Below are positions 1,882 through 20,690 of a DNA stretch of 64,000 nt, piece after piece; within the stretch, counting starts at the first letter, position 1; every line of letters starts with the position of its first letter. Made by a program: the position numbers and the translations under genes. The notes under the pieces are model-generated. The model had not been told where the DNA came from and did not search any database. It saw only the letters and a list, made by a program, of their open reading frames with translations. Origin of the DNA: Kitasatospora sp. NA04385 (lineage in GTDB: Bacteria > Actinomycetota > Actinomycetes > Streptomycetales > Streptomycetaceae); NCBI RefSeq assembly GCF_013364235.1, contig NZ_CP054919.1:7613603-7677602 (forward strand), read 5' to 3'.

Positions 1882-4029
<2,148 letters not shown>

Positions 4030-7966: not shown

Positions 7967-8695
7967 TCAGGCGGGGTGGGCGGCGGTGAAGGCGGCGGCG
8001 TCCCAGGTGCCGCCCAGGGCGGGGGCGAGGGCGGCGGCCGCGAAGGAACGGAAGGCGGCGGGGGCGTGGGCGGCGGCGCCGGCCGGGAGGGCGCCGAGCA
8101 GGGGGGCGCTGGCGGCGGTGGGGAGGTCGGCGAGGTTGCAGCGGGCGGCCAGGTCGGGGTCGGCGGGCCAGGAGCCGACGACCACGCCGCGCAGCGGCAG
8201 GCCGCGGTGGTGCAGGGCCTCGGCGGTGAGCGCGGTGGCGTTCAGGGTGCCCAGCCCGGCCGCCGCGACGAGCAGGAACCCGACGTCCAGGCCGAGGTCC
8301 CGGCAGGCGAGGGCCTGGTCGGCGAGGGTGCGTCCGCGCTCGTCGTAGCGGACCAGCAGCCCGCCCGCGCCCTCGACCAGCACGGTGCCGTACTCGGCGG
8401 CCAGGGCGGCCACGGTCTTGGCGACGTCCTCCGGGGTCGGCGTCGGCAGCCCGGCCCGGCGGGCGGCCGTCTCGGGGGCGAGCGGCTCCGGGTAACGGGC
8501 CAGTTCGACCGTGTGCACCAGCGGCCCGGCCAGCCGGGCCACCTCGGCGACGTCCCCCGGCTCGTCCGGCCCGAGCCCGGTCTGGCCGGGCTTGAGCACC
8601 GCCACCGGCTCCGGGCACAGCGCGGCGACCGCGGCGGTGGTCAGGGTCTTGCCGACCTCGGTGCCGGTGCCGGTGACGAAGAGAACGGGGGACAT
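7967..8695 (-). CDS. bioD: Dethiobiotin synthetase
   Basis: Closes the ureido ring of dethiobiotin from DAPA, CO2 and ATP, the penultimate step of biotin synthesis. The 242 residues begin with the P-loop GTGTEVGKT (T for the usual D is common) and later show VEGAGGLLV, which binds DAPA and metal. ATG 8695 has AGGAG ten bases upstream. It is the last gene of a bioB-bioA-bioD operon, 67 bases after bioA. The family is normally 220-240 residues, so the gene is intact. Confidence 0.93.
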
Positions 8696-8762
8696 GGCGT
8701 CGGTGCTCCTGGCTGGGGGTGCTGGGCGTGCTGGGGTTACTGAGGGAGTGGCCCGGTGGCCG

Positions 8763-10106
8763 CTAGTCGTCGGTGCCGGTCGCGGTGGTCGCGGCGGTGG
8801 AGGCGGCGGCCGCGGCGGCGACGGCTCGGCCGATCGCGGCGAGGTCCGCGTCCCCGGTGACGAACGGCGGCATGGTGTAGATCAGGTCGCGGAACGGCCG
8901 CAGCCACACGCCCTGTTCGGCCGCGGCCGTGGTCGCCGCGGCCATGTCGACGGGCGCGTCCAGCTGGACCACGCCGATCGCGCCCAGCACCCGGACGTCC
9001 GCGACCCCCGGCTGTCCGGCGCACGGCGCGAGCGCGGCGCGCAGCGCGGACTCGATCCGCTGCACCTCGCCGCGCCAGTCCTGCTCCAGCAGCAGGCCGA
9101 TCGAGGCGTTGGCGACGGCCGCCGCCAGCGGGTTGCCCATGAAGGTCGGGCCGTGCGCGAGCACCGGGACCTCGCCGCGCGAGATGCCCTCGGCGACCCG
9201 GCTCGTGCACAGCGTCGCGGCCAGCGTCAGGTAGCCGCCGGTCAGCGCCTTGCCCAGGCACATCACGTCCGGGGAGACGCCCGCGTGGTCGGCGGCGAAC
9301 AGTTCCCCGCTGCGGCCGAAGCCGGTGGCGATCTCGTCGAAGACCAGCAGCACGTCGTGCGCGTCGCACAGCTCCCGCAGCACGCGCAGGTACGCGGGGG
9401 AGTGGAAGCGCATCCCGCCCGCGCCCTGCACCACCGGTTCGACGATCACGGCGGCCAGCTCGCCCGCGTGCCGCCCGATCAGCTCGGCCAGGTGCGCGAC
9501 GTACGCCGGGTCCGCCGGGGCGTCGTACCCGGCGGGCGGCTCGTCGGCGAACAGCTGCCGGGGCAGCACGCCGCCCCACAGGTGGTGCATCCCGCCCTCG
9601 GGGTCGCACACCGACATCGGGTGGAAGGTGTCGCCGTGGTAGCCGCCGCGCCAGGTCAGCACCCGGTGCTTCTCCGGCCGGCCGAGCGAGCGCCAGTACT
9701 GCAGGCACATCTTCAGCGCGACCTCGACCGCCACCGAACCGGAGTCGGCGAGGAACACGTGCTGCAACGGCTCGGGCGTCAACTCGACGAGCTTGACCGC
9801 CAGTTCGACGGCCGGACGGTGGGTGAGGCCGCCGAACATGACGTGGCTCATCGCGTCGAGCTGGTCGCGCACGGCCGCGTCCAGCACCGGGTGCCGGTAG
9901 CCGTGCACCGCCGCCCACCAGGACGACATGCCGTCGATCAACTCCCGGTGCCCGCCCACGGGTTCGGCCAGCCGCAGGCGCACGCCAGCGGCCGACTCCA
10001 CCACGAGGGGCTGCGCCGTCCCGGGCATCGGGCCGTACGGGTGCCAGACGTGCGCCCGGTCCAGTTCGAGCAACCGGGCGGTTTCCGGGGTGTGCTGACG
10101 ATCCAT
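8763..10106 (-). CDS. bioA: Adenosylmethionine-8-amino-7-oxononanoate aminotransferase
   Basis: Transfers the amino group of S-adenosylmethionine to KAPA, giving DAPA. The protein is a PLP fold-type I class III aminotransferase of 447 residues. It shows [13 protein letters not shown] near the start, [21 protein letters not shown], and the PLP lysine in [11 protein letters not shown]. Its ATG shares one base with the bioB stop (TGATG), so translation is probably coupled. The reading frame stays open upstream through bioB, but that part is antisense-frame noise. No bioF or bioC lies nearby. Confidence 0.94.
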
Positions 10107-11329
10107 CAGGCGTTCGGGGCCAGCTCGGTGCCGGCGCCGCGACGGCGCACCCGGACCAGGTCGGTGCGCGCCTCGTCCCCGGTGTCCCCGGCGGTCGGGG
10201 CCGCGACGGTCTCCGGGGCCGCGGTGGCGTCCGGGGCCGCGCCGTGGCCGCCGCACGGGCCGCAGCCGCCGCCGGTGCCGCAGGCGTCCTCCTCCCGGTG
10301 GCCGCCGCAGCCCGCGGCGGCGCGGGCGCGGTGGCGGGGGAGGGTGGTCTGCTCGGCGCCCTCCACCTCGAAACCGGCGTCCTTGATCATGTCGAGGTCG
10401 GCCTGCCCGGCCTGGCCCTCGCTGGTCAGGTAGTCGCCCAGGAAGATCGAGTTGGCGATGTGCAGGCCCAGCGGCTGCATCGAACGCAGGTGCACCTCGC
10501 GGCCGCCCGCGATCCGCACCTCGATGTCCGGGCAGACGAACCGGACCATCGCCAGCACGCGCAGGCAGCGCTGCGGGGTGAGGTTCCACTCCTCGGCGAG
10601 CGGGGTGCCCTCGAACGGGATCAGGAAGTTCACCGGCACCGAGTCCGGGTCCAGCTCGCGCAGCGCGAACACCACGTCGACCAGGTCCTCGTCGCTCTCG
10701 CCCATGCCCGCGATCAGGCCCGAGCAGGCCGACAGGCCCGCGCCGTGCGCCTTGTTCACGGTGTCCACCCGGTCCGCGTAGGTGTGGGTGGTGGTGATGT
10801 CGCCGTAGGTGGCCTCGGAGGTGTTCAGGTTGTGGTTGTACGCGTCCGCGCCGGCCGCCTTCAGCCGCTCGGCCTGGTTGTCCGAGAGCAGGCCGAGGCA
10901 GGCGCACACCTCGACGCTCCCGTCCGCGTCCTTGATCGCCGCGATGGTGTCCGCGACCCGGTCGACGTCCCGGTCCGTCGGGCCGCGCCCGCTGGCCACC
11001 AGGCAGACCCGCTTCGCCCCGCCCGCCACGCCCGCGGCCGCCGCCTCGGCGGCCTGGTCCGGCTTCAGCCAGGTGTACTTGAGGATCTCCGCCTTCGAGC
11101 CGAGGCGCTGCGAACAGTACGAGCAGTCCTCCGGGCACAGCCCGCTCTTCAGGTTCACCAGGTAGTTCAGCTTCACCCGGCGGCCGAACCACTGCCGGCG
11201 CACCCGGCCCGCGGCCGCGACCACGTCCAGCAACTGGTCGTCGGTGGTGGCCAGCACGGCCAGCGCCTCCTCCCGGGTGGGCAGTTCCCGGCGAAGGCCC
11301 TTGTCGGTCAGGATGTCGAGGAGGTCCAT
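10106..11329 (-). CDS. bioB: Biotin synthase (radical SAM) with a Cys/His-rich C-terminal tail
   Basis: Inserts sulfur into dethiobiotin using two iron-sulfur clusters. The radical-SAM motif CPEDCSYC (Cys65, 69, 72) holds the [4Fe-4S] cluster. Candidate [2Fe-2S] ligands are present: KRVC, EVCACLG, ACSGL and the Arg in IAGGREVHL, matching the E. coli Cys97/Cys128/Cys188/Arg260 set. After about residue 330 comes an 80-residue tail not found in the 346-residue E. coli enzyme, including [20 protein letters not shown] and an Ala/Pro-rich end. It is the first gene of the operon. AGGA precedes ATG 11329 by about eight bases. Confidence 0.94.
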
Positions 11330-11581: not shown

Positions 11582-12316
11582 ATGACCATCCAGCGGGACG
11601 CACACGGACGCGCGGACGACGAGCAGCCGGTGGCGGGGCACCGGGCGGTCGGCGAGCGGCGTCGGCTGGCCGCGCTGTGGAGCGTCGTCGGGGTGCTCGC
11701 GGCCGGCGGGGTCTGGGTGGTCTCGACCCCGGACCACCGGAACGCCGGGGCGGCGGCCCCCTCCGGGGACAAGGCCGTCACCGCCCCGGCCGTCGCGGGC
11801 CAGCCCGCGCCGCCGCTGACGGAGTCCCAGTCCTTCGTCGCGGAGCGGTACTTCCCCGCCCAGCGGGCCTACGAGTACGACAACTACCGGGCGCACCGCT
11901 CGGCCTCCCGGGAGGGGACGGACTGCAAGGACGTCCAGGGCGACAAGACCCGCGACGTGCTGGCCGACCTGGCCTGCCAGGGCTGGATCGGGGTCGCGCT
12001 GACCCGGGGCGACCAGCCGGTGGTCTCCAGCGTCACGGTGCTGCGCTTCCTGGACGCGGGCGCCGCGGCCAAGGCCCTGCAGACCGTCCGGGAGAAGGCC
12101 GGGGACTTCGAGTTCACCTACCCGGACGGCCTGTTGGCCCCGGCGGCGAACGCCCAGCCGATGTCGGCGACCAAGATCGAACTGGTCGGCCACCACATCA
12201 CGCTGACCGTCTCCCGGTACCTCGACCAGCGGGCCGGCGAGGCGCCGGACGAGGTGCTCCGGGCGAGCAACCGGGCCGCCGCCGCCGTCGCGGGCCTGCC
12301 GTTCATGTGGATGTAG
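11582..12316 (+). CDS. Hypothetical membrane-anchored protein
   Basis: A 244-residue protein I do not recognise. Residues about 1-28 are hydrophilic and Arg-rich, and residues about 29-50 form one transmembrane helix ([17 protein letters not shown]). The remainder is an Ala/Pro linker and a soluble, presumably extracytoplasmic domain of about 165 residues with two cysteines (TDCKD and LACQG) that could pair. ATG 11582 is chosen because earlier in-frame sequence is low-complexity repeat; no strong ribosome site is visible. Its 3' end overlaps the MFS gene end by 14 bases tail-to-tail. Confidence 0.65.
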
Positions 12317-13521
12317 CGCCGCGGCCGCGCGCGGTCACCCGCAGCAGCAGCCCGGCGGCCAGCGCCAGCACCGCCGCCAGCGCGAACACCGGCGCCGCGC
12401 CCAGCGGTAGCACCACCCCGCCCAGCACGCTGCCCGCACCGATGCCCAGGTAGATGCCGGACGCGTTCAGCGACACCAGCAGCGGCCCCTGCTCGGGGGC
12501 GGCCGACAGCAGGCGCAGCTGCTGCGGCGGCGTCTGGCACCAGCTGCTCGCCCCCCACAGGAACACCAGCACCCCGACCGCGGCCGCCCCCGCCCGGACG
12601 TGCCCGGCCGCCAGGCCGGCCAGCAGCGCGAACGCCGCCGCCATCGCCGCGTACCCGGCGGTCAGTACCCGCACCGGCCCCCGCCGGTCGGCGAACCGCC
12701 CGGCCAGCAGGTTCCCCGCCACCGCGCCCGCCCCGTACAGCAGCAGCGCCGCCACCACCGCCGCCCGCCCGGAGACCCCGACGGCGTCCAGCACCGGCAC
12801 GCTGTACGAGTACGGGACGTAGCAGGCGGTCATCCCGAGCACCGTCAGCGGCAGCACCGTGAGCACCCCCGGGCGGCGCAGCGCCGCCAGCCGGGTGCGC
12901 AGCGGGACCGGCTCGGTGCCCGGCAGCGCGGGCAGGGCCAGGCGCACCGCGACCGCGCACAGCAGGGTCAGCGCGGCGACCGCCCCCAGCGCGGCCCGCC
13001 AGCCCAGCCCGACGGCCGCCACCCGGCCCAGCGGCACGCCGAGCGCGGTGGCCGCCGTCAGCCCGCCGATCACCACCGCCAGTGCCCGGCCGCGCCGCTC
13101 GGCCGCACCAGCGCCGCCGCGGTGGCCCCGCGGTGGGGTGAACGCGGCCGCCGAGCGCCGCGAGCACCCGGCCGCCCAGCAGCGCCGGGTAGTTCGGGGC
13201 GAGCCCGGTGAGCGCGTTCGCGGCGGCCAGCAGCACCAGCGCGCCGGTCAGCAGGGTGCGCCGGGGCAGCCGGGCGGTGGCCACCGCGAGCAGCGGCGAG
13301 GCGAGCGCGTACACGGCGGCGAACAGGCTGACCGACTGGCCGGCGGCCGAGGTCGACACGTGCAGCGAGGCGGCCACCGCGGGCAGGAAGCCGGCCGTGA
13401 CGAAGGCGTCGGTGCCGACCGCGAAGGTGCCCAGGGCGAGGACGGCGGCGAGGCCGAGGCCGGCCCCGGCGGGGGGAGCGGTGGCGGTCGGGGCGGGTGG
13501 GGCCTTGAGCGCGTCGGTCAC
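12303..13521 (-). pseudogene. MFS efflux transporter broken by clustered frameshifts
   Basis: A 12-TM DHA1-type drug/sugar antiporter in two out-of-frame pieces. The N-terminal part (13521 to about 13160) encodes four TM helices ending LLGGRVLAALG. The C-terminal part (about 13095 to 12303) resumes with RGRALAVVIGGLT and encodes the remaining helices. Between them, expected residues (AAFTP, then ATAAALVRP, then ERRGRAL) appear successively in three frames over about 90 GC-only bases, so at least three indels are present. GTG 13521 has AAGGGA eight bases upstream. An RsrR-like operator lies just upstream, so the gene was or is under redox control. Read error remains possible. Confidence 0.75.
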
Positions 13522-13545
13522 CGGGGATCCCTTCGGACGGGAGGT

Positions 13546-13594
13546 ATTCGGGACATGTCGTGTCCCGAATTATTCGGGACACACTGTATCCACA
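13546..13594. promoter_or_regulatory. RsrR-type 11-3-11 operator pair upstream of the MFS gene
   Basis: ATTCGGGACA at 13546-13555 and its exact complement TGTCCCGAAT at 13561-13570 form an inverted repeat. Read as 11-3-11 it has one mismatch. A second, weaker 11-3-11 copy starts with the same ATTCGGGACA at 13572. A half-site (ATTCGGGAT) sits at 13133-13141 plus 1000, that is 14133-14141, directly before the Rrf2-family gene. Repetition of one motif at both genes supports repression of the transporter and autoregulation. Confidence 0.7.
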
Positions 13595-13640
13595 ATTGCC
13601 GGACGCGGAAGCCCGGATCCGGCAGGCGGACGCTCGGGCG

Positions 13641-14132
13641 TCAGGCGGAACTTCCGGCCAGTCGGCCGTAGTTGGCGCGGACCCGGGCCACCGACGCGGC
13701 CGGGGTGCCCGCGGCCAGGTCGGCCACGGTCTGCGCGGACAGCTCGCGCCGCCAGGCCAGCTCGGCCCGGCGCATCACGGTGGAGACCCCGCACGGGCGG
13801 GCGAACTCGCGGGCCGCCGCCCCCTCCGCCCCCGCCCCCCGCTGCCGGATCTCGGCGCAGGTGAACAGCGGGTCCGGGCCCTCGACGGCCGCCACCACGT
13901 CCATCACGGTGATCCGCTCCGGCTCCCGGGCCAGCCGCACCCCGCCGCGCGGCCCCGGCGCGGACGTCAACAGCCCGGCCCGGGTGAGCCGTTGCAGCAC
14001 CTTGTTCAGGTAGGTCGGCGACAGCTCGAACATCGCCGCCAGCCGGGCCGAGGGCACCGGGTCCGCGCCGCCCACCCAGACCAGGGTGAGGCAGCAGTGC
14101 AGCCCCCACTCCACGCCTTCGCTCGTCCGCAT
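13641..14132 (-). CDS. RsrR-like Rrf2-family [2Fe-2S] redox-sensing repressor
   Basis: A 163-residue winged-helix regulator. With the start at 14132 the N-terminus reads MRTSEGVEWGLHCC, placing Glu8 and His12 exactly as in Streptomyces RsrR. The conserved TCAEIRQRG and RPCGVS segments give Cys92 and Cys114, close to RsrR Cys90 and Cys110. In RsrR these four residues bind a [2Fe-2S] cluster. The usual three-cysteine NsrR/IscR cluster motif is absent. ATG 14150 is an alternative start; neither has a clear ribosome site. Motif copies before its own start and before the MFS gene point to the targets. Confidence 0.82.
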   Translation of the reverse strand: MRTSEGVEWGLHCCLTLVWVGGADPVPSARLAAMFELSPTYLNKVLQRLTRAGLLTSAPGPRGGVRLAREPERITVMDVVAAVEGPDPLFTCAEIRQRGAGAEGAAAREFARPCGVSTVMRRAELAWRRELSAQTVADLAAGTPAASVARVRANYGRLAGSSA

Positions 14133-14169
14133 ATTCGGGATGGTAGCCATCCGGAACCCGCCCGTGCCA

Positions 14170-14234
14170 GCACCGGCGGTCCGGGCGGGCACCGGCGGCC
14201 CGGGCGGGCACCGGCGGCCCGGGCGGGCACCGGC
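14170..14234. repeat. 19-bp tandem repeat between the Rrf2 and ferredoxin genes
   Basis: Three full units (from 14170, 14189 and 14208) plus a partial one, each GCACCGGCGGCCCGGGCGG with one substitution in the first. The array fills the gap between two same-strand genes and may attenuate read-through. Confidence 0.75.
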
Positions 14235-14651
14235 TCAGTCCTCCAGGTGCTCCCGCACCCGCCGGGACGGGGAGAACACGTACAGGTCCAGGATGGCGGG
14301 CAGTTCGGCCAGGCCCGGGCCGCCCGCCTCGACCCAGGCGGTGATGTCGGCCGACGCGTCCCGGTCGTTCACCAGCCCGAGCCAGACCGGTCGGCCGCCC
14401 GCCCGCCGCCCCTCCGCCGAGGGCTGCACCACGACCACGTTGGCGTGCTCGCAGGCGTCCAGGCAGGCCACCGGGCGCACGGTGGCCACCTCGGCGAGGG
14501 CACCGCGCAACTCGGCGAGCTGCGCGGCGTGGTCGACCCGCGGCACCTTCGGCGTGCCGCAGCAGCACCCCCGGCAGACCGAGACGGTGCACCGGGCGGC
14601 CCCGCCCTGCGCGGGGACGTCGGTGGCCTTCGTGCGGGCGCGACGGCTCAT
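14235..14651 (-). CDS. Thioredoxin-like [2Fe-2S] ferredoxin
   Basis: A 138-residue protein with two cysteine groups, RCTVSVCRGCCCG near residue 21-33 and ACLDACEHANVVVV in the middle, the pattern of thioredoxin-fold [2Fe-2S] ferredoxins (CC-Fd / NuoE-like). These usually bind one cluster through four cysteines. The C-terminal half is a conserved actinobacterial extension of unknown role. ATG 14651 has GGAAG eight bases upstream. Its position next to an iron-sulfur redox regulator suggests a shared redox function, perhaps cluster reduction; that is inference. Confidence 0.75.
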   Translation of the reverse strand: MSRRARTKATDVPAQGGAARCTVSVCRGCCCGTPKVPRVDHAAQLAELRGALAEVATVRPVACLDACEHANVVVVQPSAEGRRAGGRPVWLGLVNDRDASADITAWVEAGGPGLAELPAILDLYVFSPSRRVREHLED

Positions 14652-14750
14652 CAGACACTTCCAGCGTTCTCGATCATGGTGGTCACGGCGGTGACCCTAC
14701 CCCGCGCCGCCCCTGCGCACCGGCCTCGGCCCCGGCCGCGCACCGCAGCG

Positions 14751-14801
14751 GCACCGGGCCGCCCGGCCGTCCCCTCGGGGAGCGGCCGGGCGGCCCGGTG
14801 C
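14751..14801 (-). terminator. 19-bp perfect hairpin downstream of the xylanase gene
   Basis: Arms at 14751-14769 and 14783-14801 are exact complements, all GC except one pair, with a 13-base loop. It starts 14 bases past the xylanase stop in the direction of transcription. Confidence 0.85.
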
Positions 14802-14814
14802 CGGTGGCGTCCGA

Positions 14815-15906
14815 TCAGCTCGCGGTGCAGGCGAGGGTCGGGGCGGCGTTGGCGCCGCTGTAGTCGGCGTTGAAGCCGAAGCCGGTGCTGCCGCCCGCCG
14901 GGACGGCGCCGTTGTAGGCGGCGTTGGTCACCGTGACGACCTTGCCGGACTGGCTGTAGCTGCCGCTCCAGAGGTTGGTGACCGTCTGGTTGCCGGCGTA
15001 GGTCATGGTGACCTTCCAGCCCTTGGTGGCGGTGGACCCGTTGTTCTTGACGGTCACCGCGCCGGTGAAGCCGGAGCCCCAGTCGGACGCGTTGGCGAAG
15101 GTCGCGGTGCAGCCGCTGCCGGTGCCGCCGCCGGTGCTGCCGGACGGGCTGGGCGACGGGCTGGCGCTGGCGGACGGGCTGGGCGACGGGCTGCCGGTGC
15201 CGCCGCCGGTGCCGTGGCTGACCGTGATGTTGGAGCTGCCGCTGCTGCCGTAGCCCTCGGTGGCCAGGATCTCGTAGTTCGGGGTGCCCAGGTTCAGGCC
15301 CGCCTTCGCCCACGCGGTGAAGAAGTTGGAGACGGTGATGGTGCCGCCGGTGCGCTTCGACTGCCGGATCGCCCAGAACTGGGTGAAGTTCGAGTGGTCC
15401 CCCTCGATGGACGGGGCGTCGGTGCGCTGCGTCGAGTACAGGTCGTACGTGCTGCCGTCGCTGACCACCGAGCCCAGCTTGGTGGCGCCCGAACTCGGGT
15501 TGTAGTTGCCGTAGTTGTCGACGATGTAGTACTCGATGAGCGGGTTGGTGGTCCACCCGTACAGCGACAGGTAGCAGTTGCCGTTGCAGTTGAACGTGCC
15601 CGAGTAGGTCACGGCGTCGGTCGTGCCCGGGTTCCAGCCCTTGCCGGCGACGAAGTTGGTGACGTTGTTCCACGTGGTGCTGTATTGGCCGCCGGAGCCC
15701 AGGGTCATGGCGGCCTGGCCGCTGTTCTGGCTCCAGAACGAGTAGAAGTACCCGTTGTTGGTGCCGGTGCTGTTCGACGAGACGGTCGTGTCGGCGTTCG
15801 CGGACGTGGGGATGACCAGCACGGCCGCGACGGCCATGGCGAGGACGGACACCTTGCTGGCGAGCCGGGCGAAGCGGCTGCCTCGGACGGGGCGGATGGG
15901 CTTCAC
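14815..15906 (-). CDS. Secreted GH11 endo-1,4-beta-xylanase with CBM2
   Basis: Hydrolyses xylan outside the cell. The 363 residues comprise a signal peptide (1-38, ending SANA), a GH11 jelly-roll domain (about 39-230), a Ser/Pro linker ([10 protein letters not shown] type) and a C-terminal cellulose/xylan-binding CBM2 (about 264-363) with the usual spaced tryptophans and a terminal Cys pair. The two catalytic glutamates are Glu125 in [10 protein letters not shown] and Glu217 in [15 protein letters not shown] 15906 has GAGGAAG five bases upstream. It resembles S. lividans XlnB/XlnC with CBM2. A probable promoter and xylan-type operators lie upstream. Confidence 0.93.
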
Positions 15907-17578: not shown

Positions 17579-20527
17579 TCAGGCGCCGAACACCTGGAAC
17601 TCGGAGAGCTGTCCGGCGGGCCAGCCGGTGTTGCCGGTGACGGTCAGTCGCAGGTAACGGGTCGGCGTGGCGGGGAGGTTGACGGTCACGGTGTTGCCGG
17701 TGGCCGGGTCGAAGGTGTAGCCGGCGGAACCCACCAGGGTGGTGAAGTTGGTGCCGTCGGTGGAGCCCTGGACGGTGATGGTCTGGGTGCGGGAGGCCCA
17801 GGCGGTGGCCGGGGGCAGCTTCAGGACGGCCTTGGACAGGGCGCGCGAGCAGCCCAGGTCGACCTGGATCCACTGCGGGAAGGCGTTGTTGGCGCTCTCC
17901 CAGTAGCTGTTGGCGTCACCGTCGACCGCGTTGCCGGGACCGTAGTTCTGGCTGGTGCCGGACGCGGTGGCCGGACGGCCCTGCGCCAGGTTGCCGCTGC
18001 CCGCAGGGCAGGTGGCGGTGGCCGAGGCCGACGGGGACGGCGAGGAGGACGAGGACGGGGACGAGGACGGGGACGGCGAGGAGGTGCCGTTGCCGCCGCC
18101 GAACACCTGGAACTCGGAGAGCTGCGCGGCGGGCCAGCCGGTGTTGCCGGTGACGGTCAGTCGCAGGTAACGGGTCGGCGTGGCGGGGAGGTTGACGGTC
18201 ACGGTGTTGCCGGTGGCCGGGTCGAAGGTGTAGCCGGCCGAGCCCACCAGGGTGGTGAAGTTGGTGCCGTCGGTGGAGCCCTGGACGGTGATGGTCTGGG
18301 TGCGGGAGGCCCAGGCGGTGGCCGGGGGCAGCTTCAGGACGGCCTTGGTCAGGCTGGTCGAGCAGCCCAGGTCGACCTGGATCCACTGCGGGAAGGCGCC
18401 GTTGGCGCTCTCCCAGTAGCTGTTGGCGTCGCCGTCGACCGCGTTGCCCGCGCCCAGGCCGGCGTTGGTGCCGGAGGCGGTGGCCGGACGGCCCTGCGCG
18501 ATGTTGCCGGTGCCGCTCGGGCAGGTCGGGCCGGTGGAGGTCGACGGGGACGGGGACGGCGAGGCCGGGGTCGAGGTGGACGGGGACGGGGACGGCGAGG
18601 AGGTGCCGCCGTTGCCGCCGCCGACCGGGACGCCGTTGTACGTCCAGACCGGCGCGGGCCACTGGCCGGTGCAGGTGGTGCCGCTCAGGCCGGAGTTGCC
18701 GCCGCCGTCGGTGATCTGGAAGCCGGTGCCCACGCAGTTGTGGATCGGGGTGGCGGCCTGCGCGATGTTCTTGGCCTTGACGTTGGTGAACTTCATCTGG
18801 GCGTTGGCCTGCGCCTGGATGGCGTAGGTGCCCGCGCCGTCGATGTTCACGTTGGTCAGGTTGATGCCGCTGGAGCTGCCGTCGATGGTCTGGATCGCCT
18901 CGTAGGAGCTGTCCAGGATGTCGGTGTCGGTGATGTTGATGGTCGCGCCGGCGATCGGCTCGTTCAGGCCGTCGAACCAGAGCGCGCCGACGCCGAACTG
19001 CCAGTTGTAGTCGCTGTTTCCGGCCCGGATCATGGTGTTGCGGGCCGCGGTGATGGTGCCCGCGACGGCGGTGCCGTTGCCGGAGGTGACGCCCGGGTAG
19101 CGGTTGGCGATGTGCAGGCCGCCGCCGTTGGTGATGGTGTCGGCCATCACGTTGTCCGAGATGGTGAAGTCCTTGCCGCCGTACGTGACGATGTTGTTGG
19201 CGAGGATCGGCAGGACCACCGTGTTGTGGGTGAAGCTGTCGTTGACGTTCGCCTGCCGCTCCGGCCAGGAGGCCAGGCCGTCGTCACCGGTGTTGCGCAG
19301 GAAGGTGTTGGTGACCGTCGAGTTGGTGACGCCGGTGTGGAAGTTGACGCCGTCCGCGGTCTGGTCGAGGATCCGGCTGTTCTTGATGGTGAAGTGGTCC
19401 ATCGGACCGTCCATCCAGGCGCCGACCTTGGTGTGCTGGATCCACAGGTTGTCCACGGTGGAGTTGGACATCGCGCCGCCCAGCGCGTTGACCTGGTCGT
19501 CGTCGACGCGCTCGCGCACGTCGCCGATGATCGCGAAGTCCTTCAGCGTGACGTTCTGGCTCGGGCCGCCGGCCTCCTGCGGCCGGACGGCGCCGCCGTA
19601 GCCGCCGCCCGAGACGTACTTGCCGTAGATGCCGGCCGCCCGGTTGCGGTTGATCGGGTCGCGCCCGCCCAGCACGCTGTACCAGGGGCCCGCACCGGCC
19701 AGCGTCACCTTGTCGACCACCACGTGGTCGTACAGCGTGAAGTTGCCCTGCGGGATGTAGACCGTCCGGCCCTGCGCCGCACCGGCGTTGACCGCCGCCT
19801 GGAACTTGGCGGTGGAGTCGGTGGCGCCGGTGGGGTCGGCGCCGAAGTCCGCGACCACGTCGATCGCGTTCGCGGGCTTGGCGATCGGCGCGGCGACGTT
19901 CTCGAAGTCGGCCAGGTCGATGGTGAAGCTCGGCGACTGCGCGGTGGAGGACACCTGCAGCCGGATCTTCGTGCCGATCGGGTAGGTGGTGCCCAGCAGG
20001 GTGCGGGTCTCGTCGAAGAAGTGGTGCGGGTTGGTGTCGCCCGGGTTGTTGTTGAACGGGTAACCGCCGTAGTACCAGCTGTACTTGGAGGTCACGTCGA
20101 CGCTCTTCAGCTTCTGCCCGTTGACCAGCAGGTCCATCGAGGCGTCCCGGCCCTTGCCGTCCGAGGTGTCCGGCAGGCTGTAGCGGAAGTCGATCGAGTT
20201 GGCGGGCGCGGTGAGCGTGAACTCCACGTACTGGCCGGTCGCGTTCAGCGTCACGGCCTGTCGGCCGGAGGCCTCCGAGGGCAGGTGGCCGTAGAGCCGG
20301 TCGGGGCCGACCACCGTGCCGTTGGTGGCCGCGTACTCGGCCTCCTGCTCGATGAACGGGACGCTCGCGCCGCGGTTCGGCACTGCCAGGGGGGACAGCG
20401 CGGGGACCGCGGCGGCGTGCGCCGAACCGGCGTTGACGAAGGCCACCGCCAACAGGCCGGTGGCGCCCAGCGCCAGGGTGGTCAGTGACGCGACGGTCCG
20501 CCTGACGCGGGTGGGGGGATTCTGCAT
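17579..20527 (-). CDS. Secreted GH87-type alpha-1,3-glucanase (mutanase) with two F5/8C modules
   Basis: A 982-residue extracellular enzyme. In order: a signal peptide ending AHA, an N-terminal CBM6/35-like module (EQEAEY onward), a parallel beta-helix catalytic domain beginning VVADFGADPTGATDST, and Ser/Pro/Thr linkers separating two C-terminal discoidin (F5/8 type C, CBM32-like) modules. The helix carries GAWMDGPMD, DGVNFHTGVTNS and NTGDDGLA, whose aspartates match the catalytic cluster of GH87 alpha-1,3-glucanases. The likely substrate is fungal or bacterial alpha-1,3-glucan. ATG 20527 has AGGAAG about eleven bases upstream; ATG 20548 is possible. The two F5/8C modules are nearly identical in DNA. 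Confidence 0.82.
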   Translation of the reverse strand: MQNPPTRVRRTVASLTTLALGATGLLAVAFVNAGSAHAAAVPALSPLAVPNRGASVPFIEQEAEYAATNGTVVGPDRLYGHLPSEASGRQAVTLNATGQYVEFTLTAPANSIDFRYSLPDTSDGKGRDASMDLLVNGQKLKSVDVTSKYSWYYGGYPFNNNPGDTNPHHFFDETRTLLGTTYPIGTKIRLQVSSTAQSPSFTIDLADFENVAAPIAKPANAIDVVADFGADPTGATDSTAKFQAAVNAGAAQGRTVYIPQGNFTLYDHVVVDKVTLAGAGPWYSVLGGRDPINRNRAAGIYGKYVSGGGYGGAVRPQEAGGPSQNVTLKDFAIIGDVRERVDDDQVNALGGAMSNSTVDNLWIQHTKVGAWMDGPMDHFTIKNSRILDQTADGVNFHTGVTNSTVTNTFLRNTGDDGLASWPERQANVNDSFTHNTVVLPILANNIVTYGGKDFTISDNVMADTITNGGGLHIANRYPGVTSGNGTAVAGTITAARNTMIRAGNSDYNWQFGVGALWFDGLNEPIAGATINITDTDILDSSYEAIQTIDGSSSGINLTNVNIDGAGTYAIQAQANAQMKFTNVKAKNIAQAATPIHNCVGTGFQITDGGGNSGLSGTTCTGQWPAPVWTYNGVPVGGGNGGTSSPSPSPSTSTPASPSPSPSTSTGPTCPSGTGNIAQGRPATASGTNAGLGAGNAVDGDANSYWESANGAFPQWIQVDLGCSTSLTKAVLKLPPATAWASRTQTITVQGSTDGTNFTTLVGSAGYTFDPATGNTVTVNLPATPTRYLRLTVTGNTGWPAAQLSEFQVFGGGNGTSSPSPSSSPSSSSSPSPSASATATCPAGSGNLAQGRPATASGTSQNYGPGNAVDGDANSYWESANNAFPQWIQVDLGCSRALSKAVLKLPPATAWASRTQTITVQGSTDGTNFTTLVGSAGYTFDPATGNTVTVNLPATPTRYLRLTVTGNTGWPAGQLSEFQVFGA
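17588..18461 (-). repeat. Direct repeat of the F5/8C module (period 513 bp)
   Basis: Sequence from 17588 is repeated from 18101 with few changes over about 360 bases, so the two discoidin modules share most codons including silent positions. The intervening linker differs. A recent tandem duplication or gene conversion is likely. Confidence 0.85.
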
Positions 20528-20619
20528 GGGTGACCGTGCTTCCTGCATGGGGGAGGACCCGGGTGGTGGCCGGGCGTGCCGAGCGTAGGGCCGCCCCAGC
20601 AGGAAGTCCACGGGTGAAC

Positions 20620-20690
20620 GCAAAAAAGATACAGATTGATGCAAGATCAGCTGTGAAGGATTGATGAAACCTGACTGTTACGCGCGTCCG
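20620..20690 (-). promoter_or_regulatory. A/T-rich upstream region of the GH87 gene with repeated GATTGATG
   Basis: This patch contains an A6 run, and GATTGATG at 20634 and again at 20659, a 25-base spacing that puts both copies on nearly the same helix face. A minus-strand TTCACA followed 18-20 bases later by TGTATC/TATCTT could be the promoter. The repeats may bind the gene's regulator. Confidence 0.4.

Follow-up and report, generated by a model that had tools for sequence, protein, structure and literature searches.

The regulator encoded at this Kitasatospora locus is best read as an autoregulated Rrf2 repressor that has a predicted RsrR-type [2Fe-2S] site, belongs to a sister clade of RsrR and has a local exporter regulon, a reading to which we assign a probability of about 0.7. 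Its clade, ligand positions, operator sites and exporter linkage, as well as the local confinement of full sites, are supported by the sequences, and the cluster, the repression and the signal are inferred. Features of the window, that is, the whole stretch of 64,000 nucleotides from Kitasatospora sp. NA04385 that was analysed, are collected in Table 1.

Table 1. Features of the regulator–exporter locus, in window coordinates or, for the ligands, protein residue numbers.
Feature	Position	Strand	Remarks
MFS exporter gene	12303..13521	minus	nearest NCBIfam model Cmx/CmrA, below cut-off
MFS-proximal operator	13546..13570	minus	ATTCGGGACACGACATGTCCCGAAT; perfect 10-5-10 palindrome
MFS-distal operator	13572..13596	minus	ATTGTGGATACAGTGTGTCCCGAAT; 1-bp gap from proximal copy, 26-bp pitch
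RsrR-like Rrf2 transcription regulator, 163 aa	13641..14132	minus	ATG start at 14132
Predicted [2Fe-2S] ligands of the regulator	E8, H12, C92, C114		W9 conserved; F35 where RsrR has His33
Autoregulatory operator	14133..14157	minus	GTTCCGGATGG-CTA-CCATCCCGAAT; 11-3-11, 9 of 11 pairs complementary; abuts start codon
-10-like box	14140..14145	minus	TACCAT (TANNNT); within autoregulatory operator, 7 nt before ATG
Cys-rich 138-aa protein	14235..14651	minus	"ferredoxin" of the first-pass annotation; neighbour, probably outside the module

The regulator belongs to the Rrf2 superfamily, scoring 105 bits with Pfam PF02082, whose cut-off is 30, and a phmmer search of solved structures placed S. venezuelae RsrR nearest to it (6hsd, E 2.9e-36), with 50% identity over residues 1-137. 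In the HMMER alignment, E8, H12, C92 and C114 stand opposite E8, H12, C90 and C110 of RsrR, as numbered in the first-pass annotation, and the assignment of Glu8, His12, Cys92 and Cys114 to the RsrR ligand positions made there is thus borne out. The absence of the three-cysteine NsrR/IscR motif, which had also been claimed, holds as well, because the only cysteines of the protein are at positions 13, 14, 92 and 114. The positions of an RsrR-type mixed-ligand site, namely Glu8, His12 and two C-terminal cysteines, are therefore all present. For RsrR itself, passages of PMC11138216 describe a [2Fe-2S] cluster held by two Cys from one subunit and by His and Glu from the other, and the same Cys/Cys/His/Glu ligation is given in parts of PMC8204329, one figure legend of which has Asp. 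An AlphaFold2 model of the regulator monomer, built on a 36-row alignment, had a mean pLDDT of 86.6, with lower values across residues 91-110 near the ligand loop. When this model was compared with the PDB using Foldseek, the best 11 matches were all RsrR chains (TM 0.76-0.78, 44-45% identity), with CymR, IscR and NsrR ranking behind them.

The first-pass annotation had described a single 11-3-11 operator before the MFS gene and a half-site before the regulator. The former repeat is real, and a perfect palindrome, but it is one of two tandem sites; the latter arm is present, and proved to be part of a complete 25-bp site. The genome scan for ATTCGGGACA-N5-TGTCCCGAAT that had been suggested was carried out, and this pattern is matched with zero mismatches at the proximal operator and with three at the distal one. 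These two are the only matches with up to three mismatches in the window, compared with a mean of 0.00 over 100 window shuffles, and also the only ones in the whole 8.40-Mb genome. A looser pattern, allowing one mismatch, found five places in the genome, three of them at this locus, while its reversed-pattern control found three, so that the two non-local places are at the level of the control. Full-site scans of the 8.4-Mb genome thus show no set of targets beyond this locus, and on full sites the predicted regulon in this genome is local. No sigma-70-like promoter or terminator was found by a scan of positions 13400-14800. The -10-like box within the autoregulatory operator suggests that the regulator transcript is leaderless. 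A tandem repeat (14170-14234; 19-bp unit, 3.4 copies, 97% matches) lies between the Cys-rich neighbour and the regulator operator.

A contig scan for relatives of the regulator returned 209 loci, and the best 80 (L015-L094) were studied together with the window, giving 81 loci. In 79 of these, the best 25-bp site ends at most 1 nt from the regulator start codon (the exceptions are L038 and L054), with exact abutment in 54 and an own-site consensus of about AAYCNGGAYRTGTARTATCCNGGTT-ATG. TANNNT occupies site columns 13-18 in 79/81 own sites, compared with 5/61 second sites, and stands seven bases before the ATG wherever the own site abuts it. Second sites were sought in all 81 loci with a symmetrised matrix derived from the own-start sites alone (score ≥15); site scores hence come from a matrix trained on own sites, and the 81 own sites were found by construction. 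Outside the own zone, the matrix matched 63 times just downstream of the regulator stop codon (61 loci) and four times elsewhere, whereas the mirrored matrix gave two matches, both within the own zone, and none outside it. The second site and an MFS gene occurred together in 57 loci, the MFS gene only in two (L053, L067), the site only in four and neither in 18, where L040 and L087 were counted as MFS on a fragment and L035 ends just past its second site. The exporter, earlier named as the apparent target, is therefore the usual partner, as the second operator precedes the same MFS family in 57/81 loci; exporter control is not universal, since 18/81 loci have neither the MFS gene nor a second site. 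Tandem second sites with the 26-bp pitch were found in the window and in four further loci (L126, L128, L131 and L132). L037 has at least four operator-like sites between the regulator and the MFS gene, 525 to 1269 bases past the regulator start, where others have one. In the related loci, the sequence ahead of the second site showed no conserved promoter, and terminator-like hairpins precede this site in 10/61 loci, compared with 1.2 by letter shuffling; the exporter may thus share the regulator promoter, with the second site acting as a roadblock, or use a promoter that escaped recognition.

The linked MFS protein is typically about 400 aa long. Three intact relatives score 212.6 (L015), 194.9 and 207.9 bits with NF033135 (Cmx/CmrA), far under its cut-off of 400 bits; for this reason, the name chloramphenicol exporter was rejected. 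In the window, the gene has a GTG start at 13521 with GAAGGG seven nt upstream, and its frame is broken at about 13090-13160, the parts 13092-13521 and 12303-13076 being in different frames. Its counterpart in L015 is intact (409 aa) and 94.5% identical along the aligned stretch, and against it the window gene shows several short deletions in its first half, clustered within a stretch of some 50 bases. The window copy is either a recent pseudogene or the product of a sequencing error. A programmed frameshift was rejected, as most relatives have one continuous frame, the exceptions being L040, which is broken, and L144. In the latter (G081, Kitasatospora), the regulator match falls into two pieces and its frame does not stay open from the start, and the MFS match is in two pieces as well.

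With the reading frame of the exporter disrupted, self-control may be all that is left of the circuit in this strain. That the module is a relic here, with the exporter a pseudogene and the regulator repressing nothing except itself, is a serious possibility to which we would give a little less than even odds. It would agree with the clustered deletions relative to so similar an intact gene, and with close relatives that keep the regulator and its own site but show no MFS gene and no second site within 3 kb (L016, identical to L127, and L021, identical to L129) or within 1.5 kb (L133). On the other hand, the proximal operator is intact and perfect, and clustered deletions in GC-rich DNA may stem from sequencing or assembly error.

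The gene directly upstream of the regulator had been annotated as a [2Fe-2S] ferredoxin. A co-directional Cys-rich gene is indeed found there, but the ferredoxin identity is unsupported: no Pfam match is listed for its product at E≤10, and NCBIfam gave none at E≤0.001, so that the label reflects a Cys pattern only. Since such a gene stands beside the regulator in 5/81 loci, namely the window and four close Kitasatospora relatives, it was rejected as a part of the system. Also on the minus strand of the window are three adjacent genes resembling a biotin operon (7967-11329), which from their domain matches we take to be BioB-like (Radical_SAM and BATS), BioA-like (Aminotran_3) and BioD-like (AAA_26), as well as genes for a GH11 xylanase-like protein with a CBM2 domain (14815-15906) and an alpha-1,3-glucanase-like protein with two F5/8 type C stretches (17579-20644). 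Among the 81 loci, other partners recur: an arylamine N-acetyltransferase gene lies downstream in eight of the 18 that lack both the MFS gene and a second site, and in four Nocardia loci, three of which have a second site, the partner is a pyridine-nucleotide FAD oxidoreductase. Of 116 matching plasmid records, four were examined; Rrf2 is followed by an annotated "MFS transporter" on a Streptomyces plasmid (L170) and by an annotated "FAD-dependent oxidoreductase" on a Pseudonocardia plasmid (L172). In a homolog on an Agrobacterium plasmid (L171, 2501-3013), Glu, His and both Cys are conserved but Gln replaces Trp9; the perfect palindrome ATCGTGGATATTTTATATCCACGAT stands before its Shine-Dalgarno sequence, and the next gene encodes an NAD(P)H-binding protein. 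The exporter, the arylamine acetyltransferase and the FAD oxidoreductase suggest that redox-active or xenobiotic compounds are involved.

Residue conservation was assessed in 86 rows of the window clade. All 86 have E8, H12 and the second ligand Cys, as well as W9, the counterpart of RsrR Trp9, and 85 have the first ligand Cys. In the remaining one, the regulator of S. philanthi (L028, from 3001), Tyr replaces this Cys, which may reflect a natural loss of the cluster. Where RsrR has His33, by contrast, the window clade has Phe in 85 rows and Tyr in one, whereas all 31 rows of the RsrR clade have His; the RsrR Cys106 position is occupied by Phe in 83/86. In the work of Crack et al. from 2020, His33 is reportedly the histidine of RsrR whose protonation is proposed to drive the switch, and the existence of a PDB structure of H33A RsrR (6y45) points to His33 as that histidine, while passages of PMC11138216 refer to the histidine ligand. 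If His33 is the residue meant, the window clade cannot use the proton step of RsrR. With Phe in 85/86 rows, the RsrR mechanism is not simply transferable to this clade, and the transmission from the cluster to the DNA-binding domain probably differs in part.

These residues bear on what the cluster might sense. We consider it unlikely, if worth keeping in mind, that the site works by presence or absence of the cluster (responding to iron, cluster supply, or oxidative or nitrosative damage) or as a compound-binding pocket, and not as a one-electron redox switch. The Phe in place of the His proposed to be protonated upon RsrR reduction would fit such a sensor, and the exporter, the arylamine N-acetyltransferase and the FAD oxidoreductase would fit xenobiotic sensing. 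The conservation of Trp9 and, with the single exception of L028, of the ligand positions as in RsrR speaks against it. According to the relevant parts of PMC5015018, RsrR binds DNA tightly when oxidised, weakly when reduced and not at all in the apo form, the last of which could favour a presence/absence sensor.

In a quick IQ-TREE analysis of 118 sequences, 86 window-like rows were separated from 31 RsrR-like rows (SH-aLRT 96, branch 1.72); the root is unsure, because the single outgroup is very distant. Left out of this tree and of the residue counts were 15 genus loci and L145-L154, the latter being the same places as loci among L099-L114. Thirteen of the 15 share their first 150 residues with an included row; of the other two, L128 is a new sequence with the same E8, H12 and Phe, and L144 has the broken frame. 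Among 297 Streptomycetaceae genomes searched with RsrR, 102 match at E≤1e-20, and the best 30 of these supplied the RsrR-like loci for comparison. All 30 carry tandem ACTCGGAYA-type sites with a 27-bp pitch, at 1 to 5 mismatches to the pattern. The ortholog operator ACTCGGAYA-N-TRTCCGAGT is not found at the window locus, where the inner GGAYA is common to both and the outer bases differ, nor is a divergent nmrA-like neighbour, the upstream gene being co-directional and Cys-rich. In one RsrR-like record (L173), an NAD(P)H-binding gene is divergent.

RsrR orthology of the regulator was rejected in view of the separate clade, the different operator and the Phe in place of His33. It is accordingly very improbable that the protein is simply the local RsrR, acting globally on many targets as a redox regulator and switching by the same proton-coupled mechanism: the identity over residues 1-137, the shared ligand set and Trp9, the 25-bp inverted repeats and the tandem sites would all suit this, but the long branch, the distinct sites of the orthologs, the Phe and the local confinement of full sites oppose it, as does the coexistence of one window-type and one RsrR-type protein in at least three genomes (G108, G151 and G183). 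In a genus survey that also counted RsrR orthologs, the window protein had matches at E≤1e-20 in 36/70 genomes. Across the phylum the family is patchy, as 11/396 sampled genomes, the present one included, match at E≤1e-15. RsrR-type sensors are not as few as had been presumed: a single scan gave 209 relatives, the best 80 of them being examined, and 30 RsrR orthologs come in addition. No paper on this clade was found among open-licence papers, as judged by title and start of the abstract, and the window clade is a large, apparently unstudied sister branch of RsrR.

The position of the second site relative to the exporter start was analysed in the 57 loci that have both. In 51/57, where one third would be expected by chance, the MFS frame continues without a stop across the site and is in register with its position 8, and a predicted start codon in that register lies within the operator in 49/57. 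A first count with a fixed position and a motif filter had given 38/57 and the frame test then 50/57, from which L019 was removed as its codon is in another register. ATG or GTG stands exactly at site positions 8-10 in 42 of the 49 loci, and a Shine-Dalgarno-like tetramer is found at -8 to +3 of the site in 48/49. The first residues encoded by the operator are most often M-S-[DN]-[VI]-[PL]-[IV] (38 loci tallied). On the two plasmids mentioned above, the annotated starts, which are themselves computational, at 3568 in L170 and 3050 in L172 coincide with position 8 of the sites at 3561 and 3043. The window and the Kitasatospora loci closest to it depart from this pattern, as the GTG start of the window gene lies beyond the proximal site. 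An operator that holds the predicted start codon of its target makes regulation and coding overlap in an unusual way, and it is met in loci of several actinobacterial families. That the repeat at the exporter start is an mRNA hairpin masking the start codon and not a protein operator is hardly probable, since the inclusion of the start codon, the mostly paired site bases 8-10 in 46/60 predicted folds and the terminator-like hairpins before the site are offset by a mean folding z-score of only -0.26 against letter shuffles and by the same repeat upstream of the regulator start codon, where a leaderless mRNA would not contain it.

For the autoregulated repressor that we favour, we propose the following course of events. 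One subunit would supply two Cys, and the other Glu8/His12, as ligands of the predicted [2Fe-2S] cluster, and the holo dimer would bind the 25-bp inverted repeats. At its own gene, the operator would cover the -10 box of the leaderless promoter and so block RNA polymerase, while one or more sites that overlap the translation start of the exporter gene, or lie shortly ahead of it, would block initiation or the passage of polymerase. Upon reduction or loss of the cluster, the protein would release the DNA, and both the regulator and the exporter would be made. The signal would most likely be a change in redox state, brought about by a redox-active or electrophilic substrate of the exporter. A comparable target set is that of SoxR of S. 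coelicolor, which, according to PMC4146615, controls a transporter and oxidoreductases.

On a broader scale, we advance with reserve, and as somewhat doubtful, the picture of a widespread actinobacterial clade that keeps the Glu/His/Cys/Cys site and Trp9 and has Phe in place of the proton-accepting His33, so that sensing or transmission would differ, perhaps through direct oxidation or loss of the cluster or through compound binding. Such a clade would be dedicated to export or detoxification, with operators in both start regions, over its own leaderless promoter and over the exporter start codon, where they would encode the first residues. With its one presumed exporter target, the clade provides a circuit small enough to be tested, and one where the signal could be matched to the switch and the output. 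The natural change of His33 to Phe offers a ready test of the proposed proton-coupled switch, and the presence of both kinds of regulator in one genome, with different operators, would allow their specificity to be mapped.

Among known systems, RsrR (Sven6563; PDB 6HSD, 6Y42) is the closest, with which the window protein shares the Rrf2 fold, the Glu8/His12/Cys/Cys positions and Trp9, together with 25-bp inverted repeats, tandem sites separated by one or two bases and apparent autoregulation. In contrast to RsrR, it belongs to a sister clade in which His33 and, in most members, Cys106 are replaced by Phe, and the outer half of its operator differs; its own promoter is apparently leaderless and lies beneath the operator, and its partner is an exporter and not a divergent nmrA gene. 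Parts of PMC5015018 report 630 ChIP-exo sites for RsrR, compared with three local full sites predicted in silico here. NsrR and IscR have the same Rrf2 fold, but their three-Cys motif is absent from the window protein and they are structurally less similar to it than RsrR. Cmx/CmrA exporters (NF033135) are the best-scoring named family of the linked MFS proteins, which nevertheless score far below the 400-bit family cut-off. SoxR is assigned to the MerR family in passages of PMC12594620 and has a different fold, whereas the regulator described here is a presumed repressor of the Rrf2 family. If our proposal is right, the two would be alike in that each is a redox-regulated factor with a small regulon, which for SoxR of S. 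coelicolor comprises a transporter and redox enzymes according to PMC4146615.
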